From the NCBI GenBank assembly GCA_011033025.1, contig WFMF01000251.1:1-64000 (forward strand): a stretch of DNA of 64,000 nt, read 5' to 3'. This stretch comes from Beroe forskalii (taxonomy: Eukaryota; Ctenophora; Nuda; Beroida; Beroidae). How positions within the stretch are numbered: the first letter of the stretch is position 1; each line of letters begins with the position of its first letter. This document shows positions 20,164 to 49,268 of the stretch, in pieces. The position numbers and the translations under genes are program-made. The notes below the pieces were generated by a model, which saw only the letters and a program-made list of their open reading frames with translations, was not told where the DNA came from and made no database searches.

Positions 20164-23100
20164 GTGAGTGTTATATCTTACTGGCGGTTAGAGGCGCAGG
20201 TGAGTGTTATATCTGTCTTATCTAATACCCTACCTATACTGGTGTCTTGTCTTTAGACACTGTATGTCGCTGTCTAATGAGGAAGTGTCTGACATTTCCG
20301 ATACTCTTTTTAAGGAAAAAGTAGCCCGAAAATTGCAGAGTTAGTGTAGGAGGGTTTGGTTTTTTGACTTCGTCCTCAGAGCGCTCTATGTAGGTATCGG
20401 CTAAGAGAGATTATGGATATTTCCCGCACAAAGTGGAATTTAGAATTCCACTTTACATAGTTTACTGGTATTTAAATAATTATTCGAGCTCGTATCCAGT
20501 AGAATCATCTACGATGATTGTCAGTTAAAGAGTGGAATTTTTCAGTAAATTCGGGTGAAGCACAAAGGAAAGCCTCCCTTTCCCATCCCGTTTGCTTTGT
20601 AATAATAGAATATAGTAATAGAATGCTGTAATATTCGAGCATTAGGAACATCCTTCAATGAGAAGCAGCAATATTCAGGATGTTCTGAGGCTCGGTATCA
20701 GGACATACTAACGCTTAGCTCGCGTATATTTTGTATTGATAATGGCCAGCTATTATAGATGTTTCTAAATTTCCTATCTCGCTGCAAATCATTGATATTC
20801 TGGGATACGGAAAGCTGTGAGAAGCCCCGCCCATAGGTTTCTAAACCTCGTTTTGGGAGACAACCCCACCCACTGTAGCAACCCCACCTACTGGAGCAAC
20901 CCTTGCACCCTCTGAAGCAACCCCACCTACTGAAGCAACCCTTGCACCCTCTGAAGCATCCGGTGTTTTGTGGGGGCATGGTGCCCTTGACAGAATGGTA
21001 GAAGCTGATGAAGTAGTCGCCAGTTGTGAAGCTTGGGTGAGGGAAGTGTTGGAGTTGACTCCTGAGCAACTTCGGGAGGGTGATGTCAGGGAGTTGTTTG
21101 AGAGCAGAAGGCATGTGTTTGAGAACCGTCGCTTTGGCAGGACGGGCTGGGAGTTCGTGGTGAAACTGCTGCGGATCATCAAGCTACAGAGGGAGGAGAT
21201 GAGGGAGCTCACTAAGAAACTAGCAAAGACACAGGAGGCCTTCTTGCAAACAGAGAGCAGATCAGACAGCGATGAGATCAGTGGAATGGGAGAAGCAGGA
21301 CTTCAGATACCAGAGATTGTGGTGAAGAGAGCCCCACAGCTCCATGACTCCAGAGTGACGAGTGTACAAGTCACTTCAACTGATACATCAGCTCAAGGGG
21401 AAACACCAAAGAAAGCAAATGGGTTTGGGAGTGATGTTCTAGACAAAATCATAAGGAAGAGTCTCCATGGTTCAGAAAAATTGAATGGAGATGGTGACCA
21501 AAGTCCAAAGATATCAAAAGTTGACAATGTTTTGAGTTCAATATTGCCTGATGAGGATGCAGGCCTCCTAAGTCTCAGAAAATCAATTAGGGACGGTGTT
21601 CATAGGCTAAGTGAAGCGAATAGAGTTGGCGACCAAAGCCCCAGGGAATTGATAGGTGATCAGAAGAGAAAGGAATCAAATGGAAAAGGTGTTGAGAGTT
21701 CAATGATTTTGAACGGAAATGGTCATCAAAGTCTAAGGAAATCAATAAGAAACGGGCCTAAGAAATTATTTGAGGATATTTTTCTGAGTGAAGACGAATC
21801 AAAAGGAAATGGTGACCAAGGTCAAAGAGAATCATTCGAAGATGAAACTCTGAATCCACCACACTTGAATGGACACAAACTTGCATTTGAAATTATTGAT
21901 AACAATGGTCTCCTTAGTTCAGAAAAATTGAATACAGATGGTGACCAAACTCCAAAAATATCAAAAGTTGACAATGTTTTGAGTTCAATATTGCCTGATG
22001 AGGACGGCCTCCTAAGTCTAAGAAAATCGATTAGGGAAGGTGTTCATAGGCTAAGTGAAGCGAATAGAGTTGGAGACCAGAATAGAAAGGAATCAAATGG
22101 AAAAGGTGTCCAGAGTTCAATGATATTGAATGGAAATGGTCATCAAAATCTAAGGAAATCAATAAGAAACGGACCTAAGAAATTGTTCGAGGATATTTTT
22201 CTGAGTGAAGAGGAATCAAAAGGAAATGGTCACCAAGGTCAAAGAGAATCTTTTGAAGATGAAACTCAGACTTCACAGAAATTGAATGGAAATGGTCTTG
22301 CATTTGAAACTATTGATAACAATGGTCTTCTTAGTTCAGAAGCATTGAATACAGATGGTGACCAAACTCCAAAAGATATCAAAAGTTGACAATGTTTTGA
22401 GTTCAATATTGCCTGATGAGGATGCAGGCCTCCCAAGTCTAAGAAAATCGATTAGGGAAGGTGTTCTTAAGCTAAGTGACGCAAATAGAATTGGAGACCA
22501 GAATAGAAAGGAATCAAATGGAAAAGGTGTCCAGAGTTCAATGATATTGAATGGAAATGGTCATCAAAATCTAAGGAAATCGATAAGAAATGGGAGTCAG
22601 AGTCCTAAGAAATTATTTGAGGATATTTTTCTGAGTGAAGAGGAATCAAAAGGAAATGGTTACCAAGGTCACAGAGAATCATTCGAAGATGAAACTCTGA
22701 ATCCACCACACTTGAATGGAAACAAACTTGCATTTGAAATTATTGATAACAATAGTCTCCTTAGTTCAGAAGCATTGAAGAAAGATGGTGACCAAACGCC
22801 AAAGATATCAAAAGTTGACAATGTTTTGAGTTCAATATTGCCTGATGAGGATGCAGGCCTCCTAAGTCTAAGAAAATCGATTAGGGAAGGTGTTCTTAGG
22901 CTAAGTGAAGCGAATAGAGTTGGCGACCAAATTTCAAGGGAATTGATTGGAGACGATGGTCAGAATAGAAAGGAATCAAATGGAAAAGGTGTCCAGAGTA
23001 CAATAATATTGAATGGAAATGGTCATCAAAGTCTCAGGAAATCTATCAAGAGGGGCCAGAGTCCTAAGAAATTGTTCGAGGATATTTTTCAGAGTGAAGA

Positions 23101-26010
23101 GGAATCAAATGGAAACGGCCTCAGTCGAGGAAAAGCACTTGAAGATGAGACTCAGCGTCCAAAACAATCGAATGAAAAGAAAAGTAAAAATGTCCATAAT
23201 CAAAACAAATCAAAGGGTGATGGTTTCCAAGGTCCAGATAAGTCCGGTGGAAGTGGCTCCAGAAGCTACGTGTTGTTTGAGGAGTTGCAAGAGGTTATAG
23301 AAGTTGTGGGGCAGAAGCTAACCAAGCTAAAACATGTATGTATACACCATAGACGACCTAACAGTCTTCAGTTTCATCTTGCAATGATAGATTGATAGAA
23401 GGATAAACGTGTTTATGTTCAAACACCGATAATAATACCATTTCATAGGCGCATAGGTATCATAGTTTCTGTTGAAATTGTACTTTCTATCAACTCCATA
23501 TCAAGAACTCCCCTACCCTGGAAATTTGTTATAGACTCGCACGGCTTTCCACCATGAAATGCCCTCTGTGGAAGGCACTGCTAAAGTTTCAGCGGTAGAG
23601 ATAATCCCCCAAAGGTTACCTTTGAGGCTGAATCAGTGCAGACTGGAGCCAACTCATGAGCAATCAGCGAGTTTATATGCTTAGTAAATAATACAAGTTC
23701 AGGGGATGCAATCATTGTATATGCTTAGGGAATATTATTCCGAGACAAAGTTAATATAATCTATGCCAAGAAACCCCCAGCATTTTTATTGGAATTAATT
23801 AATTGGAATAAAGAGACGCGTTTCTTCAGACTATCCTCTAACCCCACCTTCCCTGCAGGGTCACTCCATCTCGAAGTCTGACGTGGGAGGTCTGAAGCAG
23901 ACTCTGATGGAGTGCTACGACACCAATAAGGACGGTAAGATAGAAGTCAGTGAGATGTACCGCATTCTACCCGTGGAGGAGAACTTTCTGCTCAAGTTTA
24001 AGATTGCCAACGAGCCCCTCACCTTCCCCAACTTCCTCCGAATCTGGGAGTACTACGACTCTGACAGGAGTGGGAGACTAGAGCGCTGCGAGCTCGAGCT
24101 CTTCATCAACGACCTCATCAAGACTAATAAGGTACAGTTAGCTCATCAACCACTTCATCAAGACTAATAAGGTACAGTGAGCTCATCAACCACCTCATCA
24201 AGACCAATAAGGTACAGTGAGCTCATCAACCTCCTCATCAAGATTAATAAGGTACAGTGAGCTCATCAACCACTTCATCAAGACTAATAAGGTACAGTGA
24301 GCTCATCAACCACTTCATCAAGACTAATAAGGTACAGTGAGCTCATCAACCACCTCATCAAGACCAATAAGGTACAGTGAGCTCATCAACCACCTCATCA
24401 AGACCAATAAGGTACAGTGAGCTCATCAACCACTTCATCAAGACTAATAAGGTACAGTGAGCTCATCAACCACCTCATCAAGACCAATAAGGTACCAGTA
24501 TCAACCACCTCATCAAGACCAATAAGGTACAGTGAGCTCATCAACCACCTCATCAAGACTAATAAGGTACAGTGAGCTCATTAACCACCTCATCAAGACT
24601 AATAAGGTACAGTGAGCTCATCAACGACCTCATCAAGATCAATAAGGTAGCTTACAGGAATGGATCAGATTCAAATCTAATCAACCAACTACTATTCTAA
24701 CTTGTGAGCGAATTGAAAGTGAGGATTGAAACCATATCCTCTAACTTTACCCCTCCCCCCTCTCCCCCCCTCAGAATTGAAAGTACCCCCTCTAACTCAA
24801 CCTCTCCCCACAGAATAACCTCTCCCCCAGAATATCGACATCCAGCCTCACGAGATGGACCTGATTATGGACGAGATCTACCAGCATTTCGACGAGAACA
24901 ACAACCGAATGGTGGAGCAGAGTGAGCTGACGAAGCTGCTCCAGGTCCCGGAGAACTACCTGGAGCAGATAGAGCTGTATAAGAACCTGAACAAGGAGGA
25001 GTTCAGCCAACTGTTCGAGCACTACGACAGAAACGGTGGGGACACTTCACTAACTCACTAGTTTGCTAGTTCACTAGTTCACTTGTCACTTCATTAGTTC
25101 ACTGCTTTTCTGTGGAGCGATAGGTAGTGTCATGCGAGTTACATACTGTTTGTTTTAATCCAAGATGATATTTCTAGATGGCACCTATTCTCAGGGTGGT
25201 TGCCTTGAACACCACCAGCCACAAATAATAAGCAGGGGTCAATCACATATTACCTAGTCAGCCTGGAGGGAAGGGGTTTTAAATTACCGTAACCCACCTT
25301 CTCTTCTGCTCCGCCCCATTACCCCCCCTCCCCCATAACTCTATCACCCTGCCCCCCCCCCCCCCCCCCTTAACAAGGACCTCCCCCATAACTCCATTAC
25401 CCTGCCGCAGGGGACGGGCATCTGGAAGGGGAGGAGCTGCTGGAAATAGTGAGTGACATGATGCGCAAAGTGGAGATTGAACTCAACATGTCCCAGCTTG
25501 AGAAACTAGTAGAGGTGTGTTAGAATTCGTAACAAAAGCCTAGCCTTAAAACCCTGTAGATGAAATGTAATTTTTTCTCCATTTAGAAGTTTATTCCATG
25601 GATTTTTGTTGACCAATGACCTAAAAAGTTAAAATGAACTGTAGTTGCATGTGTAAGCGCGAAGGTTGGAATAATCCATTTCATCACCACACAATACTTC
25701 GGAGATACCCTGATAGATGGTAATAGTGAATACTAAGTCTACACTCTCTTTGCCCATATATGGTAATACTAAGTCTACACTCTCTTTGCCCATATATGGT
25801 AATACTAAGTCTTCACTCTCTATGCCCATATATGGTGATACTGCACTCTCTACTCCCCAGCGCATGGTGCGGGTTATAGACGTGGACTACGACGGTAAGA
25901 TCAGTAAGAGGGAGCTGGCTAACCTCTTCTTCGTCACCGGACAAATCTCCCCTTTTGAGGAGGCCGGGTCCGCCAAGCAGCGTGCCAAGACTCCCCGACC
26001 CAAGTCCTAG
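19993..26010 (+). CDS. Six-EF-hand calcium-binding protein (calbindin/calretinin/secretagogin family), gene span
   Basis: Six exons: 19993-20163, 20860-23335 (optional, see its entry), 23859-24131, 24831-25035, 25411-25514 and 25861-26010. All GT-AG introns and phases agree. Loops in order: EF1 DANNNGYIDEAE, EF2 DTNKDGKIEVSE, EF3 DSDRSGRLERCE, EF4 DENNNRMVEQSE, EF5 DRNGDGHLEGEE, EF6 DVDYDGKISKRE. EF2-EF3 match the family's VLPxEENFLLxF linker as ILPVEENFLLKF. Without the large exon the protein is about 300 residues, close to the family's 261-276. It is a cytosolic calcium buffer/sensor by family knowledge. EF4 has Arg for the usual Gly at loop position 6. A basic tail (QRAKTPRPKS) extends past EF6. 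AATAAA lies at 26426. The family is certain; which subfamily is not. Confidence 0.85.
20155..20215 (+). repeat. Two-copy duplication of a 5' splice site
   Basis: GAGGCACAGGTGAGTGTTAT and GAGGCGCAGGTGAGTGTTAT stand 36 bp apart. Using the second donor would add 12 residues in frame. Confidence 0.8.
20860..23335 (+). CDS. Large repetitive open exon between EF1 and EF2 (candidate cassette exon; one frameshift)
   Basis: Open from about 20845 to the donor CAT|GTATGT at 23336. An acceptor GGGAG at 20855-20859 would enter in phase 0 and the donor leaves in phase 0, so inclusion or skipping both keep the EF-hand frame. The N-terminal 150 residues are helical and charged (CEAWVREVLELTPEQL, KLLRIIKLQREEMREL). 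The rest is four tandem units of 139-149 codons starting ISKVDNVLSSILPDED at 21511, 21958, 22376 and 22805, each with KKLFEDIFLSEEES and NG-rich linkers. One extra A near 22371-22374 shifts the frame relative to the other units. No domain is recognised. Alternatives: an intron-nested gene, or an exapted retroposon ORF. Confidence 0.55.
21500..23200 (+). repeat. Coding tandem repeat, four units of about 430 bp
   Basis: Unit starts are spaced 447, 418 and 429 bp, that is 149, 139 (plus one inserted base) and 143 codons. Length differences between units are otherwise whole codons, suggesting selection on the reading frame. Confidence 0.85.
23859..24131 (+). CDS. EF-hand gene exon with EF2 and EF3
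   Basis: Starts after CCCTGCAG with GHSISKSDVGGLKQ and ends LINDLIKTNK with donor AAG|GTACAG, 91 codons, phase 0 at both ends. The donor and the last 24 nt of the exon are the founder of the 40-bp minisatellite that follows. Confidence 0.9.
24108..24650 (+). repeat. 40-bp minisatellite spanning the exon end and 5' splice site
   Basis: About 13 copies of a unit derived from the EF3 exon end plus intron start: CTCATCAAGACTAATAAG joined to GTACAGTGAGCTCATCAACC. Each copy keeps a full AAG|GTACAG donor. The unit is not a multiple of three, so a donor further in would shift frame after most copies. Confidence 0.9.
24831..25035 (+). CDS. EF-hand gene exon with EF4 and the start of EF5
   Basis: Follows TCTCCCCCAG. 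It encodes NIDIQPHEMDLIMDEIYQ, the EF4 loop DENNNRMVEQSE, LLQVPENYLEQIELYK and the first half of the EF5 loop (DRNG), leaving in phase 1 at G|GTGGGG. The intron splitting the EF5 loop is short and C-rich. Confidence 0.85.
25411..25514 (+). CDS. EF-hand gene exon completing EF5
   Basis: After CTGCCGCAG, completes Gly and reads DGHLEGEELLEIVSDMMRK to LEKLVE, donor GAG|GTGTGT, phase 0. Confidence 0.85.
25715..25850 (+). repeat. 36-bp repeat upstream of the last EF-hand 3' splice site
   Basis: Three to four copies of a unit with AATACTAAGTCTACACTCTC and TTTGCCCATATATGGT. The last unit merges into the pyrimidine tract TGCACTCTCTACTCCCCAG of the acceptor at 25860. Confidence 0.75.
25861..26010 (+). 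CDS. EF-hand gene terminal exon with EF6
   Basis: Starts RMVRVIDVDYDGKISKRE after CTCCCCAG; loop residues D1, D3, D5, G6 and E12 are all present, whereas EF6 is degenerate in vertebrate calbindin. It ends with a Lys/Arg/Pro-rich tail and TAG. Confidence 0.85.
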   Translation, partial: RMVRVIDVDYDGKISKRELANLFFVTGQISPFEEAGSAKQRAKTPRPKS

Positions 26011-26742: not shown

Positions 26743-29700
26743 CTGCACGTGTTCCAGTCAAAACTACACAGTTCAGATTCGAGTTTTACGGTTTTTAATA
26801 CCTCTTAAAGCCACAAAACGTGTTCTAACTTTCTAACTTTCTTTTGCATTTCCATAGACTTTGTTTGAATTGTATGACAATGTCTCATCACATGACAAGT
26901 AAATAAAATAAATTGAATATATCAATCAATAAATGACAAGGAGTTATTACTTTATTACTTTATTACTTTATTACACCTTTTCAAAACCATATCAGAGTGT
27001 TATAGAAGTCTCAAGTCCTCAAGTCAGGAAATAAAAATAAAATATTAGTTACAGTCCAATTACAGATCATACTAAATTGTATATCTTACGTAATGTAGAA
27101 ATGTTAAACAACGCAATACCTCGTTTGTAGTGATATCCACAAGTTTTGCGTTTTTGACCCCGCTTCCCCCACATAGGACCTTGTCGTTGCTGTAGAAGTG
27201 CCCGCAGTACAGGAATTCTGAGTCCTCGTGGGTGCGGCAGTTCAGAGTAGACACCAGTTTACGGGTACGAGTATCCCAGATCTGAGAAAAACAGCTGTAA
27301 ATTAGTAAATCGGTGAAGTTCGCGACTTTTCCTCATCAAAGCAGTTTAGTTCAAGAACGCGCGCGCGCCGCGCGCTGTTAGACTGATTGCTGAAAGATAG
27401 CTTTTGTACCATGTAAAATTTTTCGCGTTTTACGTTTTAGTAAAACCGCGGGTTTTTTTCCGTGTGGCATATTGATGCCCAATTGCTGAAACAGCGATTG
27501 ATTTGACATGAACGAACTTCTCGAATACTGAAAGTTTTGCAATTGGATAAGAACGCGGGTTTGGAGCCAGCAATTAGCAAATGCGTCTATTTCATGGAAG
27601 GGAGTAATGATCAAATGGCTCACATTTGAATTTTGAGTGATTTTCCTAATTCGGAAGGGAAAGGTTGAGAACTGTTGTCGAAAATCCGATGACGTTGAGG
27701 TACCCAGAAGGGTTTTAAGATTTTGTAATAAAGCTGATATGAAGTCTCAGACCTGCCAATTTGAGTGTAAAGTGCAAGTAGAATATGAGTGGTGAGGAAA
27801 TTGGTAATCATATCAGTTTGTTGATCAGCTTTACAACACAGTAAGCACGTGCATTACGTTTTTAGTATATGTTTATTACACAGTACAGAAGTTGCTGATA
27901 AAAAACAAAACAAGCAGCATACTGTTTAAAATCAAGCACAAATACGTAACCAAGTTATGTTCAATGCGTACAAACTCACAAAGTACTAAAGTAACGAACT
28001 ATTAACGGCTTTGGATTAAGAAAAATAAATAACTTCGTGTAATCGCGCTTTTGCCTTAACAGTTGGAAGAAAAATAAACAAATACTTAACTCTGTTTTCT
28101 TTAAAACTGGAGAAGCCTAAACATGTTGTATTTCCTTGAAAGTATAGTAGGTATTTTATACCTTAGTAACTTCATGAAATACCAAGTTAGTAAAGTAGCA
28201 AAGTAAACTTGAGAACCAAGCTAAAGTCATGGCACAAGTTGGACCAAAGCAGTTACCAACATGGTTCATAGCAACATATCACTGGACACAGCATTTTAAT
28301 CATTTAATAAGTTTATAGCATTCTAAAAACCAAGAGAAGATCAAATAGCAACCAAGCAAAGAAGATGCATTGTGATTCGCTACCATGGTGAACAGTGCGT
28401 CCAGTTAAGCAGTAGAGGGCTGCAGGGCTACTAGTGTACCTTGTTTAGACCCAATATACACACAAAATGACTTTCTATTTCTACTTAAAGTGTTTATAGT
28501 AATGCTAAGTAATAGAGGGTGACAAAGCATCTTACCAAGTGAAAAGAAAGCAAATGGGGGTGTGATGTACAACTTGTTAACTATGTACTAAAGTAAACAC
28601 TCCCAATAGATTATAGAACACTACCTGTAGGGCATCCTTAACTACCCAGGACGCTGTCAGAAGGTAGTGGCCGCAGATGTCTATTCCTTCACCGCACACC
28701 TTAGGGCCTGAAATCAGGTGGCGTTAAATAACATGCTGGGTTAAGTGTCGCAGGGTAAATTGTCACAGGGTAAAGTGCTAAAGTGTCGCGGGGTTAAGCG
28801 TTGCAGGGTAAAGTGTTGCAGGGTAAAGTGTTGCAGGGTAAAGTGTTGCAGGGTAAAGTGTCGCGGGGTAAAGTGTTGCAGGGTAAAGTGCTAAAGTTTC
28901 GCGGGGTAAAGTGTGGCAGGGTAAAGTGTTGCAGGGTAAAGTGTCGCAAGGTAAACTATCGCACTGGGGTAAAGTGCTTAAGTGTTGCAGGGTAAAGTGT
29001 CTCAGGGTAAAGTTCTTAAGTGTCGCGGGGTAAAGTGTTGCAGGGTAAAGTGTTGCAGGGTAAAGTGTTGCAGGGTAAAGTGTCGCGGGGTAAAGTGTTG
29101 CAGGGTAAAGTGCTAAAGTTTCGCGGGGTAAAGTGTGGCAGGGTAAAGTGTTGCAGGGTGAAGTATCGCAGAGTGAAGGTGTGGGGTAAATTGTCACAAG
29201 GTAATATAATAGTTGATGACGTCACCATCAGGTAATATAATAGTCAGCCACGTAGCTAGGATGTGTGGCCAGGGGATGCATGCCAAATTGCAAGGGATGC
29301 TGAGCAATCCATTTCGACCAATTATCACAGAGGATGCAAGTTTTCAGGGGATGCAAGCCAACTTTCCAGGGGATGCAGAGCATCCCCTGCATCCCCACTG
29401 GCTACGTGGCTGATAATAGTTGATGACTAAAGGACTATGTAATAGAATAGGGAGTTGATGACGTCACCATCAGGTAATAGAATATGACTAAAGGACTAAG
29501 TAATATAATGACCTACCGTTGACGCTCCACACGACACCTTCTGAGCGAGTGTCCCACAGTTTGACGCTGCAATCCCACCCTGCTGACAGAACCAGGAACT
29601 TGTCCAGCGGATCGAACTTAGTGACGAAGAGGCGCTGCGAGTGGCCCACGGGGGTGTCGTCTGACCTGAAACACTTCCAGGTTTACAAGGTTTACTTCCA

Positions 29701-32700
29701 GGGGTGACGAGGGGGTTGAAGAGAAGCAGTGAGTGGACCCCAGATCTTTAACACTGTGAAGAGAAGCAGTGAATTGAGTTCTAATCCTGGTCCCTAACAC
29801 TGTCAGTGACTCAATTGATGGTAGAGGGGGAATAAATCGCGAGGAAATATCAAAAACAACATGGCAACTAGCACACGAGCACTTATTACAGATTTAAGGC
29901 TGGGAGAAGTACAAGTGTCAGGACTAGGTGGAATCAGGATATTGGGCTGTATTGGGAGAAGTACAAGTGTCAGGACTAGGTGGAATCAGGATATTGGGCT
30001 GTATTGGGAGAAGTACAAGTGTCAGGACTAGGTGGAATCAGGATATTGGGCTGTATTGGGAGAAGTACAAGTGTCAGGACTAGGTGGAATCAGGATATTG
30101 GGCTGTATTGGGAGAGTACAAGTCGGACTAGGTGGAATCAGGATGGGAGAGTACAAGTGTCAGGGAGAAGGGCTGTATTGGGGATGTTGGGCTGTGGGAA
30201 AGTACAAGTGTCAGGACTAGGTGGAATCAGGATCTGTAGGATATTGGGCTATTGTATTGGGAGAAGTACAAGTGTCAGGACTAGGTGGAATCAGGATATT
30301 GGGCTGCTGTATTGGGAGAAGTACAAAGGACTAGGTGGAATCAGGACTAGGTGGGATCAAGTGATATTGGGCTGTATTGGGAGAAACATTACAAGTGTCA
30401 GGACTAGGGAATCAGGATATTGGCTGTATTGGGAGAAATTACAAGTGTATAGGTGGAATCAGGATATTGGGCTGTAGGGAATCAGGATAGTACAAGTGTC
30501 AGGACTAGGTGGAATCAGGATATTGGGCTGTATTGGGAGAAGTACAAGTGTCAGGACTAGGTGGGAATCAGGATATTGGGCTGTATTGGGAGAAGTACAA
30601 GTGTCAGGACTAGGTGGAATCGAGTATTGGGCTGTATTGGGGACTAGGTGGAATCAGGATATTGGGCTGTATTGGGAGAGTGTCAGGACTAGGTGGAATC
30701 AGGATATTGGGCTGTATTGGGAGAAGTGTCAGGATTAAGTCAGGATATTGGGCTGTATTGGGAGGGAAGTACAAGTGTCAGGACTAGGAATCAGGATATT
30801 GGGCTGTATTGGGAGAAGTACAAGTGTCAAATAACATGCTGGGTTAAGTGTCGCAGGGTAAATTGTCACAGGGTAAAGTGCTAAAGTTTCGCGGGGTAAA
30901 GTGTCGTAGGGTAAACTGTTGCAGGGTAAACTGTCTCAGGGTAAAGTGCTTAAGTGTTACAGGGTAAACTGTCTCAGGATAAAATGCTAAAGTGTCGCAG
31001 GGTAAATTGTCACAGGGTAAAGTGTCGTAGCGTAAAGTGTTGCAGGGTAAACTGTCTCAGGGTAAAGTGCTTAAGTGTTACAGGGTAAATTGTCACAGGG
31101 TAAAGTGCTAAAGTTTCGCGGGGTAAAGTGTGGCAGGGTAAAGTGTTGCAGGGTAAAGTGTGGCAGGGTAAAGTGTTGCAGGGTAAAGTATCGCAGAGTG
31201 TAGGTTTATGACTAAAGGACTAAGTAATATAATGGGGAGTTGATGACGTCACCATCAGGTAATACAATAGTTGATGACTAAAGGACTAAGTAATATAATG
31301 GGGAGTTGATGACGTCACCATCAGGTAATACAATAGTTGATGACTAAAGGACTAAGTAATAGAATAGGGAGTTGATGACGTCACCATCAGGTAATATAAT
31401 AGTTGATGACTAAAGGACTAAGTAATAGAATAGGGAGTTGATGACGTCACCATCAGGTAATACAATAGTTGATGACTAAAGGACTAAATAGAATAGGAGT
31501 TGATGACGTCACCATCAGGTAATAGAATAGTTGATGACTAAAGGACTAAGTAATAGAATAGGGAGTTGATGACGTCACCATCAGGTAATAGAATAGTTGA
31601 TGACTAAAGGACTAAGTAATATAATAGGGAGTTGATGACGTCACCATCAGGTAATACAATAGTTGATGACTAAAGGACTAAGTAATAGAATAGGGAGTTG
31701 ATGACGTCACCATCAGGTAATAGAATATGACTAAAGGACTATGTAATATAATGGGGAGTTGATGACGTCACCATCAGGTAATAGAATAGTTGATGACGTC
31801 ACCATCAGGTAATAGAATATGACTAAAGGACTATGTAATAGAATAGGGAGTTGATGACGTCACCATCAGGTAATAGAATAGTTGATGACGTCACCATCAG
31901 GTAATAGAATAGTTGATGACTAAAGGACTATGTAATATAATAACCTACCATTGACGCTCCACACGACACCTTCTGAGCGAGTATCCCACAGTTTGACGCT
32001 GCAGTCCCACCCTGCTGACAGAACCAGGAACTTGTCCAGCGGATCGAACTTAGTGACGAAGAGGCGCTGCGAGTGGCCCACGGGGGTGTCGTCTGACCTG
32101 AAACACTTCCAGGTTTACAAGGTTTACTTCCAGGGGTGACGAGGGGGTTGAAGAGAAGCAGTGAGTGGACCCCAGATCTTTAACACTGTGAAGAGAAGCA
32201 GTGAATTGAGTTCTAATCCTGGTCCCTAACACTGTCAGTGACTCAATTGATGGTAGAGGGGGAATAAATCGCGAGGAAATATCAAAAACAACATGGCAAC
32301 TAGCACACGAGCACTTATTACAGATTTAAGGCTGGGAGAAGTACAAGTGTCAGGACTAGGTGGAATCAGGATGTCAGTACAGCAGAGAGTTAGGAAAAGT
32401 CAGTGAAAGTTGGGGAAAGTTAGGAAAACTGAAAGTGAGTGAAAGGTAGTGAGAGGTAGGGAGAGGTAGTGAGAGGAAGTGAGATTTAGTGAGATTTCGT
32501 GAGACTGTGATAGTGTTTCTGTGAGAGTCGGTGCTATCACCAATATGAGCAGCTAAACAGTGTGAGGCTGGATTCCTATTACTCTATTACTCAGGTAACG
32601 TATGGCCTCTCTAACTCAGCAGCTTTAGAAACCCTCAGTCTAATCGCTGTAATAGGACACGTGGGACTGCTTTAAACAACCCGTGAAACTAAGTCACGTG

Positions 32701-35700
32701 AAGAGAACAACACTCACCACACTCCACAAACCCACAGAGAACAGCTTCCCTCAGTAGTAACACAGCAAGTTTAATAGAATTTGTTTACAGTAGAAAGTTA
32801 CGCAGCAAGTTTTAGAAGTTATATTTTAGAATTTGTTTACAGCTCTTCACGGAGGGAAACTTAAAGCCGCAGCCCACAGTCTTCAAAAACAAAGAATATG
32901 ATGAACAGCTAAACCACAAACTCGTGAAGAGAGAATAATGAATAGGTCATATGAATTTAGTTGGCACAGCATCAGGTTATTGCTATATTGATTTACATTG
33001 CAGTTACACAGTTACTACTGCGGCACTGTTGTTGAAATAAACTTCACAAATTGTCATATTTATTACTTGTGGTAAAGCTACGAAGAGCACTTTTACGCGC
33101 CCCATGCCTGGTAACAACAAAATGCTAGCAAATACTATCCTAGTTTCTTCTGGAGAAATATCATAGAGGAAATTCAAGGTTTCAAGAATAGTGAAGTGTG
33201 GACCAAGGTAAAATGTGGACTGTAAATAACATAAAATTACAATAATTGAGAAAGACTTGAAAATAAGTTTGCCTTTCAATAATGACGATAGGAAAGATCA
33301 TCATGGTTAGTTGTGCTAACATATCTTAGCCAAACCGCGTCCGTTGCCCCTCAGACAATTCTCATGGGGGCCTTGCCGTAGGGCACAGCGCATCAAAGGA
33401 AGCGCACTTTACCTACCTACCTACCCATGGGACTACACGCCCCCCCTTAGGGGGGGGGGCAAGCCCCCCTAGTTTTGAAAAGCCCCCCCCCCCCCTAGAA
33501 AAATCTTAGGGGGGAGGGGCTTCGCATCCTAGGAAGCGCACTTTACCTACCTACCTACCTCATGGTTATTGGCTACCAAAGAGGTGAAATTCATAGTTCA
33601 TGGGTATTCAGAACAATTGTAGAATAATTCATAAGTTGATAGACTGACGAATCTTCGATTCCTTTAGGACCTTCGAAGGTGCTTATCAGCTCGTATGTTT
33701 CCGTATCGTAGAGATAGAGATCTGGCTTCTGGAAATAGTGGAAGCTTTGGTCGGCTTGTGATTACTTCCAGTAATTATCTACCTCAATTACCAAAACCCA
33801 ACGTAGAGAACGTCTAATTCTTCGTATTTTAAAGATCGATAAACGAAGTTCCATATTGTACGGGTTGGAACAAAATAATAATTAGTTGGCTAAGTCTATC
33901 TCTTCTTATCGATACGAGGTATTTACTTTCATAACACTGAAATTGGGTAAGTACAGTTTTATCTGAAAAGATAGAGGAGACACACAGTTTGAAACCTTAA
34001 AAAGTTAAAATGCCAGAGAAAACAAGAATTGCGCCTGCAGGCGCATTTCTTATGCCAGAGAACAAAATTACTATTAAAGGGAGCAAGAAAACTGCAACGA
34101 CCTTAAGCACTAAGGTCTTTAGGTCTACAGTAAGCAGTCAAAGGTGACCCAATGATCCAATGTTACCTTGCCTAGGGGCAGCAGGGAGTTGTCTGATACG
34201 TACCTTGCCTACTAGGGGCAGCAAGGAGTTGTCTGATACGTACCTTGCCTACTAGGGGCAGCAGGAAGTTGATACGTACCTTGCCTACTAGGGGCAGCAG
34301 GAAGTTGATACGTACCTTGCCTACTAGGGACAGCAAGGAGTTGATACGTACCTTGCCTACTAGGGGCAGCAGGAAGTTAATACGTACCTTGCCTACTAGG
34401 GACAGCAGGGAGTTGATACGTACCTTGCCTACTAGGGACAGCAGGGAGTAGATACGTACCTTGCCTACTAGGGACAGCAGGGAGTTGATACGTACCTTGC
34501 CTACTAGGGACAGCAGGGAGTTGATACGTACCTTGCCTACTAGGGACAGCAGGGAGTTGATACGTACCTTGCCTACTAGGGACAGCAAGGAGTTGTTTGA
34601 TACGTACCTTGCCTACTAGGGACAGCAGGGAATTGATACGTACCTTGCCTACTAGAGACAGCAGGGAGTTGATACGTACCTTGCCTACTAGGGACAGCAA
34701 GGAGTTGATACGTACCTTGCCTACTAGGGACAGCAGGGAGTTGATACGTACCTTGCCTACTAGAGACAGCAGGGAGTTGATACGTACCTTGCCTACTAGG
34801 GACAGCAGGGAGTTGATACGTACCTTGCCTACTAGGGACAGCAAGGAGTTGATACGTACCTTGCCTACTAGGGACAGCAGGGAGTAGATACGTACCTTGC
34901 CTACTAGGGAAGCAGGGAGTTGATACGTACCTTGCCTACTAGGGGCAGCAGGGAGTTGATACGTACCTTGCCTACTAGGGACAGCAGGGAGTTGATACGT
35001 ACCTTGCCTACTAGGGACAGCAGGGAGTTGATACGTACCTTGCCTACTAGGGACAGCAGGGAGTTGTCTGATACCTTGCCTACTAGGGACAGCAGGAGTA
35101 GATACGTACCTTGCCTACTAGGGGCAGCAGGGAGTTGATACGTACCTTGCCTACTAGGGACAGCAGGGAGTTGATACGTACCTTGCCTACTAGGGGCAGC
35201 AGGGAGTTGATACGTACCTTGCCTACTAGAGACAGCAGGGAGTAGATACGTACCTTGCCTACTAGGGACAGCAGGGAGTTGATACGTACCTTGCCTACTA
35301 GGTACAGCAGGGAGTAGATACGTACCTTGCCTACTAGGGACAGCAGGGAGTTGTCTGATACGTACCTTGCCTACTAGGGACAGCAGGGAGTTGTCTGATA
35401 CGTACCTTGCCTACTAGGGACAGCAGGGAGTTGTCTGATACGTACCTTGCCTACTTGGGGCAGCAGGGAGTAGATACGTACCTTGCCTACTAGGGACAGC
35501 AGGGAGTTGATACGTACCTTGCCTACTAGGGACAGCAGGGAGTTGATACGTACCTTGCCTACTAGGGGCAGCAGGGAGTTGATACGTACCTTGCCTACTA
35601 GGGACAGCAGGGAGTTGTCTGATACGTACCTTGCCTACTAGGGACAGCAGGGAGTTGTCTGATACGTACCTTGCCTACTAGGGACAGCAGGAGTTGATAC

Positions 35701-38538
35701 GTACCTTGCCTACTAGGGACAGCAAGGAGTTGATACGTACCTTGCCTACTAGGGACAGCAGGGAGTTGATACGTACCTTGCCTACTAGGGACAGCAGGGA
35801 GTTGATACGTACCTTGCCTACTAGGGACAGCAGGGAGTAGATACGTACCTTGCCTACTAGGGACAGCAAGGAATTGATACGTACCTTGCCTACTAGAGAC
35901 AGCAGGGAGTTGATACGTACCTTGCCTACTAGGGACAGCAAGGAGTTGATACGTACCTTGCCTACTAGGGACAGCAGGGAGTTGATACGTACCTTGCCTA
36001 CTAGAGACAGCAGGGAGTTGATACGTACCTTGCCTACTAGGGACAGCAGGGAGTTGATACGTACCTTGCCTACTAGGGACAGCAAGGAGTTGATACGTAC
36101 CTTGCCTACTAGGGACAGCAGGGAGTAGATACGTACCTTGCCTACTAGGGACAGCAGGGAGTTGATACGTACCTTGCCTACTAGGGACAGTAGGGAGTTG
36201 ATACGTACCTTGCCTACTAGGGACAGCAAGGAATTGATACGTACCTTGCCTACTAGGGACAGCAGGGAGTTGATACGTACCTTGCCTACTAGGGACAGCA
36301 GGGAGTTGATACGTACCTTGCCAACTAGGGACAGCAGGGAGTTGTCTGATACGTACCTTGCCTACTAGGGACAGCAGGGAGTTGATACGTACCTTGCCTA
36401 CTAGGGACAGCAGGGAGTTGATACGTACCTTGCCTACTAGGGACAGCAGGGAGTTGATACGTACCTTGCCTACTAGGGACAGCAGGGAGTTGATACGTAC
36501 CTTGCCTACTAGGGGCAGCAGGGAGTTGATACGTACCTTGCCTACTAGAGACAGCAGGGAGTAGATACGTACCTTGCCTACTAGGGACAGCAGGGAGTTG
36601 ATACGTACCTTGCCTACTAGGTACAGCAGGGAGTAGATACGTACCTTGCCTACTAGGGACAGCAGGGAGTTGATACGTACCTTGCCTACTAGAGACAGCA
36701 GGGAGTTGATACGTACCTTGCCTACTAGGGACAGCAGGGAGTTGATACGTACCTTGCCTACTAGAGACAGCAGGGAGTTGTCTGATACGTACCTTGCCTA
36801 CTAGGGACAGCAGGGAGTTGTCTGATACGTACCTTGCCTACTAGGGACAGCAGGGAGTTGTCTGATACGTACCTTGCCTACTTGGGGCAGTACCTTGCCT
36901 ACTAGGGACAGCAGGGAGTTGTACCTTGCCTACTAGGGACAGCAGGGAGTTGATACGTACCTTGCCTACTAGGGGCAGCAGGAGTTGATACGTACCTTGC
37001 CTACTAGGGACAGCAGGGAGTTGTCTGATACGTACCTTGCCTACTAGGGACAGCAGGGAGTTGTCTGATACGTACCTTGCCTACTAGGGACAGCAGGGAG
37101 TTGATACGTACCTTGCCTACTAGGGACAGCAAGGAGTTGATACGTACCTTGCCTACTAGGGACAGCAGGGAGTTGATACGTACCTTGCCTACTAGGGACA
37201 GCAGGGAGTTGATACGTACCTTGCCTACTAGGGACAGCAGGGAGTAGATACGTACCTTGCCTACTAGGGGCAGCAGGGAGTTGATACGTACCTTGCCTAC
37301 TAGGGACAGCAGGGAGTTGTTACGTACCTTGCCTACTAGGGGCAGCAGGGAGTTGATACGTACCTTGCCTACTAGGGACAGCAGGGAGTTGTCTGATACG
37401 TACCTTGCCTACTAGGGACAGCAGGGAGTTGTCTGATACGTACCTTGCCTACTAGGGGCAGCAGGGAGTTGATACGTACCTTGCCTACTAGGGACAGCAG
37501 GGAGTTGATACGTACCTTGCCTACTAGGGACAGCAGGGAGTTGTCCACGTTCACGTCGAGGCAGCTGATCTCGTTGTCTTGTTGCAGAACCACCTGGTTT
37601 GTTTGGTCTCTGGCGTTTATTGCTCTGACACTGCCAGTTGGGCCTGGGAATGCAGTCTTATTAGCAAATACAAGGCTAATAAATTATTAACCTTGTATTT
37701 GCTCACACCTCAACTTGTGGGGTTGGGGAATGCAGTCTTATTAACTTTGTATTTGTGTTGGGTTGGGGAATGTTCTAACTGAATCTATAACTCTGAGAAT
37801 CGTCAACAAGTTCTGATCTCTAATTTTGAAATCAGCAGTAAAACTCAATCAAGTTTACCAGCGACTTTAATAAAGGATTAAAACGCGTGCATCAGAGAGC
37901 GTCACACGCCGACGCTTCAAAGACAGTCGGAAAACTCACCGTGTTTTCCATCATATCAAACGTTAAACACGTCATGTTAATATCACATCGACATTACAAT
38001 ATTTTCATATTAAACACATGTTAATATCACATCGACATTACAAGACTTTCATATTAAAAACACCATTGATATTACAATATTAAACACGCTGCGCTAGTCG
38101 TAACAGGCCGCCCCATCCGGTACCTGTTGCAAAGAAGGTGTCTGAGTCTCTGAGGAAGCGGAGTGATGTGACTGGGAGGTCCTTGGAGAGGCGCTGGATC
38201 AGCAGAACCTGCTCCCCTGTCTCACAGTGGAAGATCTGAAACGGTGAACGGAGTCTGAAGGGGGTGGGGGAGAAGCGTTATAGCTCCATCTGATGGCTCG
38301 AAGCTAATGTTTAGACCTTTACCCGAGTATCAAGTAAAACACTAAAACAACACAAAGTTCTTGAACTCAACTAGGTACATCACATTAATCATTGCTTTTA
38401 GGTAGCTGAATAATTCTACTGAACCTCGGCATCCCCATTCCCGTATCCCAGCACCAAAGTATCTGACACCGGAGAGAACTGACAGCTGAAAACTCCGTTC
38501 ACACTGCTCGTGGGGATCACGTGTTTCACGTTCAGCAT
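26623..38538 (-). CDS. WD40-repeat (beta-propeller) protein, gene span
   Basis: Eight coding exons on the minus strand in order: 38538-38425, 38235-38124, 37643-37516, 33728-33649, then one of two duplicate exons (32097-31949 or 29665-29517), 28707-28625, 27281-27120 and 26742-26623. All phases agree when one duplicate is used. Product about 330 residues, the size of a single seven-blade propeller. WD-type strands: VFSCQFSPVSDTLVLGYGNG, VTSLRFLRDSDTFFATG, ISCLDVNVDNSLLSLVG, LFVTKFDPLDKFLVLSAGWD followed by SVKLWDTRS, LLTASWVVKDALQIWDTRTR, and MQCLSVSRAKKLVVAGG. WD40 propellers are protein-interaction scaffolds; the ortholog is not recognised. The start ATG at 38538 is tentative. Introns are swollen by six minisatellite families. 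Confidence 0.8.
27120..27281 (-). CDS. WD40 gene exon (IWDTRTR)
   Basis: 162 nt from TTTCTCAG to GAG|GTATTG. Encodes IWDTRTRKLVSTLNC, THEDSEFLYCGHFYSND and KVLCGGSGVKNAKLVDITT(NE). Phase 0 at both ends. Confidence 0.85.
27282..28624 (-). other. WD40 gene intron, no feature seen
   Basis: AT-rich with a short CGCGCGCG tract near 27358-27375. No exon, ORF or repeat family is supported. Confidence 0.5.
28625..28707 (-). CDS. WD40 gene exon (VCGEGIDICGHYLL)
   Basis: 83 nt from GATTTCAG to CAG|GTAGTG. It completes Gly of VNG and reads PKVCGEGIDICGHYLLTASW to DALQ. Phase 1 to phase 0. Confidence 0.8.
28730..29200. repeat. 14-bp minisatellite, first block
   Basis: About 30 units near GGGTAAAGTGTTGCA, within the intron left of the duplicated exon. 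The same family forms a second block at 30835-31205. Confidence 0.85.
29517..29665 (-). CDS. WD40 gene duplicated exon, copy near the 3' end
   Basis: 149 nt after GTGTTTCAG. Encodes (S)SDDTPVGHSQRLFVTKF, DPLDKFLVLSAGWDC, SVKLWDTRSEGVVWSVN(G). Enters in phase 2 and leaves in phase 1 (G|GTAGGT). It differs from the copy at 31949-32097 by three synonymous substitutions that I can see. Because 149 is not a multiple of three, using both copies would break the frame. Confidence 0.75.
29666..29945 (-). repeat. Duplicated intron segment (partner at 32098-32377)
   Basis: About 275 bp following the exon on the plus-strand map appears identical in both copies. Together with the exon and part of the minisatellites it makes a duplication with a period of about 2.43 kb. 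Confidence 0.8.
29905..30830. repeat. 52-bp minisatellite
   Basis: About 18-20 units with GTACAAGTGTCAGGACTAGG, TGGAATCAGGATATTGGGC and TGTATTGGGAGAA. The first four are nearly perfect and later ones carry deletions. The frames open here on the plus strand are artefacts. Confidence 0.9.
30835..31205. repeat. 14-bp minisatellite, second block
   Basis: Same GGGTAAAGTG family as 28730-29200, starting with the identical lead-in AATAACATGCTGGGTTAAG, so it belongs to the large tandem duplication. Confidence 0.85.
31205..31945. repeat. About 65-bp minisatellite with a TGACGTCA site per unit
   Basis: Twelve units carry GTTGATGACGTCACCATCAG followed by TAATA and GACTAAAGGACTA words. Two more stand at 29212-29235 and 29453-29475. 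TGACGTCA is the CREB/ATF consensus. Confidence 0.9.
31949..32097 (-). CDS. WD40 gene duplicated exon, copy near the 5' end
   Basis: Same protein sequence, splice sites and phases as 29517-29665. Either mutually exclusive alternative exons, one unused copy, or a false duplication from two haplotypes in the assembly. Confidence 0.7.
32378..33648 (-). other. WD40 gene intron, mixed low-complexity
   Basis: Short GTGAGAGGTA-type repeats at about 32390-32515. At 33390-33570 a hairpin of long C and G runs is bracketed by two copies of AAGCGCACTTTACCTACCTA (about 33399 and 33534). No exon is seen. Confidence 0.5.
33649..33728 (-). CDS. WD40 gene exon (LYLYDTETYELI)
   Basis: 80 nt after CTATTTCCAG. 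Encodes KPDLYLYDTETYELIST, FEGPKGIEDS, donor TTC|GTCAGT in phase 2, which joins correctly to the duplicated exon. The donor is not a strong consensus. The exon supplies the blade strand missing between SLVGK and SDDTPVGHS. Confidence 0.6.
34160..37545 (-). repeat. 36-bp minisatellite carrying a 5' splice site in every unit
   Basis: About 90 tandem copies. Read on the minus strand the unit is CCCTAGTAGGCAAG joined to GTACGTATCAACTCCCTGCT plus GT: the last codons of the WD40 exon (LSLVGK) plus its donor AAG|GTACGT and the first intron bases. The unit is 12 codons with no stop (LLSLVGKVRINS), so translation would stay open across uninterrupted runs. Units with an extra TCTGA-type 5-bp insert break the frame. 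The exon at 37516-37643 is the founder end. Confidence 0.95.
37516..37643 (-). CDS. WD40 gene exon whose donor founds the 36-bp array
   Basis: After CATTCCCAG: (G)PTGSVRAINARDQTNQVV, LQQDNEISCLDVNVDNSLL, SLVGK, then AAG|GTACGT. Phase 1 to 0. The coordinate given is the first possible donor; any of the following donors is equally good in sequence, so the true exon end is unknown. Confidence 0.75.
37644..38123 (-). other. WD40 gene intron with short direct repeats
   Basis: Near-repeats of TGTTAATATCACATCGACAT occur at 37975-38080, and of GTTGGGGAATGCAGTCTTAT at 37640-37770. Confidence 0.5.
38124..38235 (-). CDS. WD40 gene exon (IFHCETGEQ)
   Basis: 112 nt from CCGTTTCAG to ACAG|GTACCG. Encodes IFHCETGEQVLLIQRLSKD, LPVTSLRFLRDSDTFFAT. 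Phase 0 to 1. Confidence 0.8.
38425..38538 (-). CDS. WD40 gene first visible coding exon
   Basis: From ATG: MLNVKHVIPTSSVNGVFS, CQFSPVSDTLVLGYGNG, DAE, donor GAG|GTTCAG. Upstream of the ATG the frame is open to an acceptor-like TGATTGCAG, so the exon could begin about 20 nt earlier and a 5' exon may exist. Confidence 0.65.
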
Positions 38539-38554
38539 CTTAGAGGAAATGTGC

Positions 38555-39335
38555 ACCCTGCAATCACAAAGAGAGGGGTTTCAGAGAGGAGATGTGAACC
38601 CTGCAATCACAGAGAGGGGTTTCAGAGAGGAAATGTGCACCCTGCAAACACAGAGAGGGGTTTCAGAGAGGAAATGTGCACCCTGAAATCACAGAGGGGG
38701 TTTCAGAGAGGAAATGTGAACCTGAGGGGTTTCAGAGAGGAAATGTGAACCTTGAAATCACAGAGGGGGTTTCAGAGAGGAAATGTGAACCCTGCGATCA
38801 CAGAGGGGGTTTCAGTGATGAGATGTGGACCCTGTTATCACAGAGGGTGTTTCAGAGAGGAGATGTGCACCCTGAAATCACACAGGGGGTTTCAGTGAGG
38901 AAATGTGAACCCTGCAATCACAGAGGGGGTTTCAGAGAGGAAATGTGAACCCTGCAATCACAGAGGGGGTTTCAGAGAGGAAATGTGAACCCTGCAATCA
39001 CAGAGGGGGTTTCAGAGAGGAAATGTGAACCCTGCAATCACAGAGGGGGTTTCAGTGAGGAGATGTGATCCCTGCAAACACAGAAGGGGTCGTTTCAGTG
39101 AGGAAATGTGATCCCTGCAATCACAGAGGGGGTTTCAGAGAGGAAATGTGACCCTGCAATCACAGAGGGGGTTTCAGAGAGGAGATGTGATCCCTGCAAA
39201 CACAGAGAGGGGTTTCAGAGAGGAAATGTGAACCCTACAATCACAGAGGGGGTTTCAGAGAGGGAATGTGAACCTTGCAAACACAGAGGGGTTTCAGAGA
39301 GTAAATGTGAACCATGTGAACATGAGATGACTACT
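38555..39335 (-). repeat. About 40-bp minisatellite upstream of the first WD40 exon
   Basis: About 19 units of TTTCAGAGAGGAAATGTGAA, CCCTGCAATCACAGAGGGGG. On the gene strand each unit holds TGATTGCAGGG, a 3' splice-site-like core. The unit bordering the exon continues straight into the ATG, so this array may have been founded on the acceptor of that exon. Confidence 0.85.
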
Positions 39336-46287: not shown

Positions 46288-47046
46288 CTATGCAATAGTA
46301 CTTGGTCTGACATAGGTGTTAATACCTTTTCTCTTTGCAATATATTTGTTTTCCATCAAAAAGTTATTAAACTTCGATTTATTTTCTAGATAACCAACTC
46401 CTTCAATCTTGTCTAATATAAGATTTGAAACTTGCCAATAGTTGTCAGCATTTTCATGTAAACATTCATTCTTGAAAACTTCCAAATTACTCTTAAATGC
46501 ATTCACATCATTTGAAGACTTAACATAGTTTGGTAGCTTATTCCAGTAATTACGAACCCTTTCAGGCAGAAAATGAGCTCTTAATTTGCAAATATCAGAA
46601 ACACTAGATTTAACACTTTTATGTAAAATGTTCTTTCCTGACCTACCAAGTCTAAATATATTTTCACCATATTGAACTTTATCATTTAATATTTTATATG
46701 TTTCAATAAGGTCACCTCTTAATCTCCTTTCACCTAATGTTGTAGATTAAGCTTCTTCAAACGCTCACTATATGGTAAAAAGTCCAATATCATCAACTAA
46801 TCTTGTAAATCTACGCTGTACAGATTCAAGCTCTAAAATAGTTGACCAGTTTCCATGGCAAATACTTGTGTTCCAAATTTGAACACAATACTCTAACTTT
46901 GGTCTTATCATTGTTTTATAGATACGAATTAAAATAGCTGGATCACGAGTAAGCATGTTTCTAGTTACCCAAGCAATCATTTTATTAGCATCTTTAATAC
47001 AAGCAGCTTCTACTAGGGCTTCAGCATAAGGACCTTCCAACTTCAT
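46288..47046 (-). pseudogene. LINE RT C-terminal region
   Basis: Two open pieces (47046-46768 and 46506-46288) plus a frameshifted middle encode the LINE thumb/C-terminal region, including DPAILIRIYKTMIRPKLEY and a final INTYVRPSTIA before a stop. Confidence 0.65.
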
Positions 47047-47628
47047 GGAGCACTGAGGATTATAATGTTAGCAAGTTGGCATGCCTCTCATAATTTTTCT
47101 TTTTTTTTTCTTTTTTGTTGGACTGTAGCTCTCTTATGTGAATGATGAATCTACACTCAATGAAACTCAATAGTATTAGGTAGGTATCGAGGTTGACTGG
47201 CCCTCATCTCATTTTTGATCTTTAATAGTTGCCCACTTTATTATTTATTGTTTGTTGATTGATTAATAAATTGATTTGCTATATTTTATTTGATAGAATA
47301 GTAAAGACAAAATAGTAAAAATGATCCTCTTTACAAACAATTCCAAAGGCTTCTCAAAATAGAACCATAAAATCAATGCTGGAGTAGTCTGCATCATCAT
47401 CAAAGATAAGTACCTGCCTAAGCAACAGCAATCAAACCTAGTAATAAAAGTTGCTATACAAAATTAAAACGTGGAACAGCTTGAGTTGTGGTGTACACAA
47501 TAGCGAACAGCACGAGTACCCTTGTGCCCCTTAAGCTGTTCACAGCTCTTTGAGATGGTGCAGGCATACTAGCCTATATTTCGTGCTATGTTATATATTT
47601 AATTGTCCTGTAAAGATTGGCGCAAATA

Positions 47629-48786
47629 TTAATTTTCTTGTTTTACTGAATTTTCTTGTTTTACTGAAGAGTTAATGTTGTCTTTCCATTTTAATTGATT
47701 ATTCACAACAATTCCAAGATCTTTCTCAGATTGCACACTATCTAAAACAATTTCATCTATTCTATATTCATTCAAGGGATTATTATTATAATCAAAATGC
47801 ATGACTTTGCATTTCTTAGTATTGAACTTAAGAAGCCACAAAGATTCCCAGTTTTCAAGTGATTTAAGATCAATGTCAACAGTTTCTTGGTTATCAATGC
47901 TTGCATTTACAATTAACTTCAAGTCATCAGCAAATAACTTTGTTAGATTATTGATAATGCCAGGAAGATCATTAATATATAGAATAAATAACAAGGGACC
48001 CAAGACTGAGCCCTGAGGCACTCCAGATAGTACTTTTCTAAAAGATGAATAGTTTCCCCTAACACAAGTACGTAAAGTATGTTCACTTAGGAAGTCCTTT
48101 AAAATAGATAGTGTTGAGCCTTTGATGCCATAATTTTCCAACTTAGTGAGAAGCCTGTGATGAGGGACTGTGTCAAAAGCTTTGCAAAAATCAAAGTAAA
48201 ACAAATCAACAGGATATCCTGAGTCTAGAAGATCAATTATATGGCATCAACAGTCTCTAACCAATTTGATAAACAGGATTTGTTTTCAACAAAACCATGT
48301 TGGTGTTCACTAATATCATCCTTGACAAATTCTAAGACATGGTTTCTAATAAATTTCTCATAAACTTTACATAGGATGCGTCAAGGATACAGGTCTGTAG
48401 TTGAGAGGATCTGTCTTGGCATCTTTCTTGTGTAGACTGATGATGTTTGCAACTTTCCATAACTGAGGAACCTTCTGTTCATTAATACAATTGTTATATA
48501 GCAATGTAAGGCTCTTGAAAAAACCAGGGTTTCCAGCAAGGGCTTTCAGCAACTTAGGATGTATGTTGTCAGGACCAGAGCTCTTGAATATGTTTAAAGA
48601 CTTTAATTCATTTAAAACCTCCTCTTCAGAAATGTTAACATCAGAAATGGTCCTATCAACTGTCTTATAACAACTTTGAGGCAATGGACCATATGGTTCT
48701 TTTGTGAAAACAGAACTAAAACCATCTGCAAAACATTCAGCAGTTTCTTTGTCATTTGATGTCATGGATCCATCAGCTTTCTTCAA
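47629..48786 (-). pseudogene. LINE reverse transcriptase core
   Basis: 48786-48367 carries the finger region (GPDNIHPKLLKALAG, WKVANIISLHKKDAKTDPL, NYRPVSLT). 48204-47629 carries palm motifs A, B and C (FADD box). The 48205-48366 gap has frameshifts and stops where NWLETVDAI and LIDLLDSGYPV would lie. Confidence 0.8.
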
Positions 48787-49268
48787 TGCTGTTACAATTG
48801 ACTTGACATTTCTTCTTGAACGTAGATAAGAATAAAATGCCTTAGAATTGTGCTTCAGATCATTTGTTATAAGTTTCTCATATTTAACTTGCTTTCAATT
48901 CAACTGCATCGACTTCACCCTATCTCATGAGTGCTGTATTGAGATTTTCAATAGTTGGGCTTTCATTGAAAATCCCCCAACATTTATTCTTTGATCTGAT
49001 AGCACGCTTCAGGGAGGAATTTAACCAAGGAGTACTTCTTTGATTGTTGTCTTCAGAGTGATGATCGTACATTTAGGAAGTGAATCATTAACTTTTAACA
49101 ATTTACTGTGGATTTCTGACCACATTTCTTCAACATTCATGAACTCTTGCTCTTTTGAAAAAGCCCAATCAATGCTCTTTTGAGAGCTCTAATATGTCAT
49201 TATACTCCATTTTGACCAATTCCTTCTGACATCATCAGTTTCAGTTGAATGGACCTGATCAATTTTTA

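Follow-up and report, generated by a model that had tools for sequence, protein, structure and literature searches.

The human interferon-induced 6-16 gene (IFI6) is said to carry a minisatellite of 12-bp units at a splice donor, in an array much shorter than the one analyzed here, and the original report of the amphioxus 'mirages' is reportedly that of Canestro et al. 2002. The term denotes tandem copies of exon-intron boundaries, found in Adh3 and in the globin genes BflGb6 and BflGb9 (PMC3087553). According to the excerpts of PMC3087553, duplication can affect 5′ as well as 3′ boundaries, AG/GT signals are present in many units, not in all, and the Adh3 data together with RT-PCR of the globins suggest that regular splicing is undisturbed by the mirages. 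The same excerpts cite Rogers-type intron gain, in which segments with AG/GT are tandemly duplicated. In human segmental-duplication genes, tandem repeats located internally at exon-intron boundaries can alter splicing or give rise to new or alternative introns, as stated in the excerpts of PMC2812944. A literature search, which covered few subscription journals and for several queries the best-ranked matches (the best 15 of 12,448, 20 of 1,670 and 15 of 73), listed neither a description of boundary minisatellites from a ctenophore nor, within the same scope, a whole-genome survey except the human segmental-duplication screen (PMC2812944). Here, we analyzed a window of 64,000 bases (bases 1-64000 of contig C305, 253,107 bp; the assembly has 216 Mb in 1134 contigs), in which a preliminary description had noticed about 90 tandem copies of a splice donor after a WD40 exon.

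Host gene and anatomy of the donor array

From their translations, exons a to d on the minus strand are assigned to part of a WD40 propeller. Gene models were drawn by eye. Exon a (38425..38557, end placed by hand) follows the acceptor TGATTGCAG/GGTGCACATTTCC; exon b (38124..38235, IFHCETGEQVLLIQ...) was positioned by hand; exon c (37516..37643, 128 nt, ending ...GACAACTCCCTGCTGTCCCTAGTAGGCAAG) was modelled from WD40 similarity and phase and is the source of the exon part of the repeat unit. Exon d (33671..33728, AAGCCAGATCTC..., KPDLYLYDTETYELISTFE; positions by hand) is joined by exon c in phase 0 (...NVDNSLLSLVGK/KPDLYLYDTETYELISTFE), and its 3′ end (GAAG/GTCCTA) is uncertain. Five exon translations joined by hand, with a doubtful last junction, matched PF00400 at 36.1 bits (cut-off 27; E 8e-9). 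The joined translation matched many propeller families in Pfam, nearly all below their own cut-offs, and many propeller proteins in the PDB (best E 5e-7), and neither source gave an identity finer than 'WD40 repeat protein'. By our reading of the WD40 pattern, the c/d junction would lie in a loop between two strands of one blade, not in the propeller core where the array had earlier been placed.

A WD40-like exon with its flanks also occurs twice on the minus strand, at 29439-29940 and 31870-32372, with 97.2% identity over a 507-column alignment; the pair is a recent duplication and perhaps represents alternative exons. A 66-bp tandem array (31204-31942) starts a few bases into the intron after a later WD40-like exon, next to its donor, which it does not cover.

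TRF called a single array at 34172-37543 with a period of 36, 91.6 copies and a score of 5241. Cutting the minus strand at every CAAG/GTA (37515 to 34166) gave 92 units and 93 donors including that of exon c, in good agreement with the earlier estimate. The donor array (34167..37515, minus strand) consists of head-to-tail units, each formed by GTACGTATCA and the final 26 or 30 bases of exon c. Donor 0 has its GT at 37515, directly after the exon end at 37516, as previously proposed, and the final donor is GTAACA at 34166. Seventy units measure 36 bp, 15 measure 40 bp and four measure 35 bp, with one unit each of 37, 31 and 21 bp; AAG/GTACGT is present at 89 of the 93 donors.

Directly after the end of exon c (...GTGGACAACTCCCTGCTGTCCCTAGTAGGCAAG) comes GTACGTATCA, and after this the exon end is repeated. 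The 40-bp unit reproduces the final 30 bases of the exon without change (GACAACTCCC...GGCAAG), together with 10 intron bases, so the unit came from the boundary between exon c and its intron. The 36-bp unit is the 40-bp unit minus GACA, with 26 exon bases. The exon share is thus larger than the 17 or so bases first assigned to it, and what had been taken for a 5-bp insert is a 4-bp segment that matches ...GTGGACAACTCCC of exon c itself. Since exon c has GACA, the 40-bp unit is probably ancestral, the likely founder form, and the 36-bp unit would be a deletion form that later spread.

The units comprise 27 distinct sequences in an ordered pattern. One run of seven unit types occurs twice (units 39-45 and 73-79; the longest run in 500 shuffles was six), as expected under block duplication; such blocks indicate that exchange or conversion involved several units at once. 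When the genome was searched with two joined units, all 46 of the 46 matches fell inside the array, only the best candidates being scored. The stretch 37545-38240 had a single full-length match in the assembly, namely itself, and a second haplotype was not found. Ninety-two near-identical consecutive units are not a product of chance, and the array is real. Assembly is difficult for long arrays with 36-bp units, and the copy number might be an artefact of it; against this stand the ordered pattern of distinct unit types, the two-copy cases elsewhere (C664, C785) and the arrays at many loci, none of which fixes the exact number. We regard an artefact as highly improbable.

Reading frame, neighbouring arrays and selection

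We extended exon c to each of the 93 donors in turn and joined it to exon d. Donors 0, 1 and 2 gave open, in-frame joins with 0, 12 and 24 additional residues, and all 90 donors from donor 3 onward, after the first 40-mer, failed on frame or stop. The open run from exon c ends at the first 40-mer, which leaves these three donors as the usable ones. The proposal of the preliminary description that later donors add steps of 12 residues holds for donors 1 and 2 and fails for the 90 beyond them, so that such steps are possible twice at most. Repeat coding throughout the array was rejected, the frame being lost at unit 3.

Two further arrays in the window straddle exon ends; the WD40 donor array is therefore not isolated. 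An acceptor array overlaps the start of exon a (38542..39313, minus strand; 19.4 copies of a 40-bp unit, CTGAAACCCCCTCTGTGATTGCAG/GGTTCACATTTCCTCT). Fifteen acceptor copies were found there by pattern (38542-39313), and just one, exon a's own, was usable without a stop. The second lies in an EF-hand gene (24103..24649, plus strand) and has 13.8 copies of a 40-bp unit (...ATCAAGACTAATAAG/GTACAGTGAGC) built from 29 exon and 11 intron bases. The EF-hand exon region, as far as the stretch was checked, spans 23904..24131 on the plus strand with its donor GT at 24132. One of the 14 donors, again the exon's own, was usable with either of two acceptors, and a third acceptor gave none. In the joins tested, neither array serves protein variation. 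A fixed unit length of 40 bp was considered and dropped: the three window arrays share it, but units in the genome sample described below range from 22 to 82 bp.

A 417-bp (139-codon) unit occurs three times at 21661-22929 (plus strand) within long open frames (20845-22386 and 22349-23392), with EF-hand-like exons on either side, one at 20.0 kb and one at 23.9 kb. At the far end of the window, a 34-bp minisatellite with at least 34 copies (62824-64000; unit ending ...GTATGCAG) runs to the last base.

The preliminary description had also raised a length-variable splice-choice system, in which regulated donor choice would insert 12-residue steps into a propeller loop. Units of 36 bp are indeed 12 codons without a stop, three donors are usable, and GGCAAG and GTACGTA are invariant across the 69 36-mers beginning with GTACGT. 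However, alternative sites that are in frame and free of stops amount to three of 93 donors, that is, two alternatives, and the 15 units of 40 bp break the frame. Of the 14 and 15 sites tested at the two arrays nearby, none but that of the exon itself was usable; this reading fits neither the EF-hand nor the acceptor array and finds no support beyond two extra steps. Additionally, splice motifs are not spared: over 10 boundary arrays pooled, variation affected 24 of 72 positions in the motifs and 117 of 386 elsewhere in the units (Fisher p=0.68). Overall, regulated splice choice appears very unlikely.

The negative motif test over the 10 arrays likewise led us to reject selection on every copy. 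In the WD40 donor array alone, one of nine motif positions was variable against 17 of 31 others; this unusually invariant donor core is a hint of constraint that the 10 arrays together do not share. Some copies had lost the A or G of AG in five of the six acceptor arrays tested. Four of the 15 unit lengths entered were multiples of three, about the chance expectation; they came from 14 arrays, as the WD40 donor array contributed both 36 and 40. The motif variability and the unit lengths blind to frame both fit neutrality. We also considered that the donors act jointly, for example as a U1 snRNP trap that slows splicing or protects the transcript, with a tuned copy number. The presence of 93 near-identical donors within one intron would suit this idea; nevertheless, arrays of acceptors exist too, copies without A or G of AG are found in most of those tested, and nothing in the data is specific to U1, which makes such a function extremely unlikely.

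Exon-end arrays in a sample of the genome

The genome was searched for three domains of many-exon genes, which gave 101 matches to kinesin, 69 to the myosin head and 10 to the E1-E2 ATPase. Ninety exon-centred stretches (70 from the domain searches and 20 from another) merged into 57 intervals with 194 kb. Of the 180 matches, 134 entered, 130 lay wholly within the fetched letters and 27 were dropped for internal stops. The final set held 103 exons in 53 intervals, with 200 ends that had a predicted splice site by a home-made score.

A tandem array straddled nine of these 200 ends, in eight exons, and reached 4-90 bases into the exon. The kinesin exon at C897:28164-28382 carries arrays at both ends, with 14.9 copies of a 30-bp acceptor unit and 22.1 copies of a 45-bp donor unit. 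Two more boundary arrays were found by hand after being missed by the rule. At C164:6142, the rule's chosen site is one unit off in an acceptor array with about 27 copies of a 58-bp unit; at C664:53296 (positions 1612-1699 of the fetched stretch, about 53.4 kb), a 43-bp unit containing the donor occurs twice with 97% matches, outside the count as the domain match contains stops. This two-copy duplication may show how such an array begins. Arrays near exon ends that stay within the intron, such as those at C173:212046 and C225:1030778, were left uncounted, and so was the window array at 31204-31942.

As a control, the same rule was slid along the same introns at 150-1400 bases from the original positions, and a second control was matched for GC. 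All arrays together (TRF score of at least 50) showed no significant excess at the sampled exon ends, with nine against 6.3 expected (p=0.18; GC-matched p=0.15). At scores of at least 100 and 150, eight straddled ends stood against 4.5 (p=0.085; GC-matched p=0.036) and 3.8 (p=0.037; GC-matched p=0.015). Eight ends likewise compared with 2.9 at 200 (p=0.009; GC-matched 2.3 expected, p=0.0024) and with 2.2 at 300 (p=0.002; GC-matched 1.8 expected, p=0.0004). At 400 the figures were six against 1.7 (p=0.008; GC-matched p=0.0029) and at 600 four against 0.9 (p=0.011; GC-matched p=0.0038). The seven thresholds were not set beforehand, and the ends are not independent, three of the nine lying on C897. 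The ends of the larger arrays cluster 0-100 bases from exon ends (196 ends of 101 exons, two kinesin matches being left out). The density of larger arrays is thus roughly threefold higher at exon ends than within introns, an excess above plain neutral scatter.

This excess counts against a purely neutral reading and raises the possibility that transcription, RNA-DNA hybrids or repair at splice junctions favors the start of duplication there. The larger arrays speak for such a bias in both controls at scores of at least 200 and 300, as does the position of their ends within about 100 bp of exon ends. On the other hand, the excess vanishes when every array scoring at least 50 is counted; seven thresholds were used, a third of the straddled ends lie on one contig, and the sample covers one genome and three protein families. 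Exons also exclude arrays, so the array ends near exons may reflect selection. We therefore treat junction-directed birth as conceivable but somewhat doubtful. It is compatible with neutral expansion and would be an addition to it, excluding nothing. Equally tentatively, duplication might start preferentially at exon-intron junctions, with several per cent of exon ends bearing splice-site arrays of two to 92 copies; if this is true, an ongoing genome-wide process lengthens introns and continually provides raw material for novel splice variants, in an animal only distantly related to amphioxus.

TRF arrays cover 9.6% of the sample; TRF marked 13% of the Hormiphora genome, according to the excerpts of PMC8527503. 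Within the window, several other repeats were observed. Inverted repeats lie at 59757-60868 and 60911-62021 (arms of about 1.1 kb, 96% complementary, 42 bp apart) and at 854-1540 and 3452-4138 (including 161-bp tandem units, 96% complementary over the longest 322 bp). Open frames resembling those of a LINE-type element occupy 46291-50427 on the minus strand, with a reverse transcriptase match (PF00078, E 9e-21) at 47632-48246. Three coiled-coil frames that resemble ORF1 and, by eye, each other lie at 8404-9267 (minus), 12022-12918 (plus) and 57416-58578 (minus), and the parts of them that were scanned matched no Pfam family above cut-off. A tRNA-like stretch at 58910-58982 (minus; Rfam RF00005, 30.5 bits, gathering threshold 29; no ARAGORN call) is perhaps a SINE.

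Elsewhere in the assembly, 8,000 of the 13,339 bases of a mitochondrial contig were read. They contain a divergent COX1 (PF00115, E 2e-99), which needs TGA as Trp and has AGA/AGG at positions that we take to be conserved arginines, and COX3 (E 6e-21). The A+T content is 83%, and TTT accounts for 21% of 1602 codons in four frames. ARAGORN called no mitochondrial tRNA in these 8,000 of 13,339 bases, and a frame beside cox3, which we read as Nad3, matched no Pfam family. Features expected of a ctenophore are very AT-rich, fast-evolving mitochondrial DNA in which TGA is Trp and AGR is Arg and tRNA genes are absent, and the traits observed resemble those of ctenophore mitochondria as described in the excerpts of PMC5924465. 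The host is thus probably a ctenophore; an amphioxus host was set aside, as AGR read as Arg does not suit the mitochondria of that group. As further taxon markers, the Hormiphora spliced-leader pattern did not discriminate, with 204 matches against 155 in the control, and the ionotropic glutamate receptor had 11 matches.

A putative origin and its place among known systems

After weighing these data, we consider the array to be, quite probably, a neutral minisatellite of the mirage kind that straddles an exon-intron junction and is kept since the exon-adjacent copy still splices. In the order of events that we infer, a tandem duplication would first have doubled the final 30 bases of exon c and the 10 intron bases that follow them. 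The extra copy would have landed on the intron side, where it was harmless, and a loss of 4 bp would have given the 36-bp form. Slippage, unequal exchange or gene conversion, which copied units singly and in blocks, would then have raised the number to 92. The exon-adjacent donor, normally transcribed first, would join exon d, so that the gene keeps working; a switch to donor 1 or 2 would lengthen the protein by 12 or 24 residues, and use of any later donor would lead to a frameshift or stop, with the RNA presumably destroyed as faulty. The same process has probably acted at other exon ends of the genome.

Most likely, then, the exon-adjacent donor is the one used, perhaps with some leakage to donors 1 and 2. 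The second proposal of the preliminary description, neutral expansion with exon-proximal donor choice, fits the unit lengths, frames and motif variation best; its statement on the donor actually used is an expectation. The excerpts of PMC5585400 state that, where two 5′ splice sites compete, SRSF1 promotes the later, intron-proximal one and hnRNP A1 the intron-distal one. The SRSF1 preference would predict trouble in an intron with 93 donors and counts against neutral expansion. Given the opposite preferences of the two proteins, 93 nearly equal donors provide a real test of donor choice: the intron is a natural experiment on whether splicing takes the first donor or the donor closest to the 3′ end of the intron. 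Furthermore, the frequency of arrays at the sampled exon ends, nine in 200, suggests that an animal genome can be rich in boundary minisatellites and that these are not an amphioxus oddity, which bears on intron growth and on the origin of new splice forms.

The human 6-16 gene had been named as the nearest known case. The IFI6 minisatellite resembles the WD40 array in that its unit contains a splice donor, and it is far smaller; the mirages and the other arrays of the genome analyzed here show that the kind is known and the locus not isolated. The human segmental-duplication repeats have minisatellite units close to 30 bp in length, and some of these repeats also lie at exon-intron boundaries; however, by the excerpts of PMC2812944, they average about four copies, belong to recent primate paralogues and have transcript evidence, whereas the WD40 array has far more copies and is known from genomic sequence. 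Rogers-type gain shares the duplication of an exon segment together with its splice signal. We rejected the idea that the array created its intron, whose 3′ end (TTTCCAG/AAGCCAG) lies outside the array; there is thus no indication of such an origin.

The closest likeness is to the amphioxus mirages. As in these, the copies are tandem and minisatellite-like (92 units, TRF score 5241), the unit spans a boundary (30 exon and 10 intron bases, the exon being modelled from WD40 similarity and phase), and many copies retain splice signals (89 of 93 donors with GTACGT). For the mirages, the excerpts of PMC3087553 report concerted evolution within a cluster, somatic instability in Adh3 and length instability in BflGb6, whose haplotypes have six and three units, compared with 92 in the WD40 array. 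The host here is a different, probably non-bilaterian animal. Overall, the WD40 donor array has the structural features of a mirage and is an array of a known kind.
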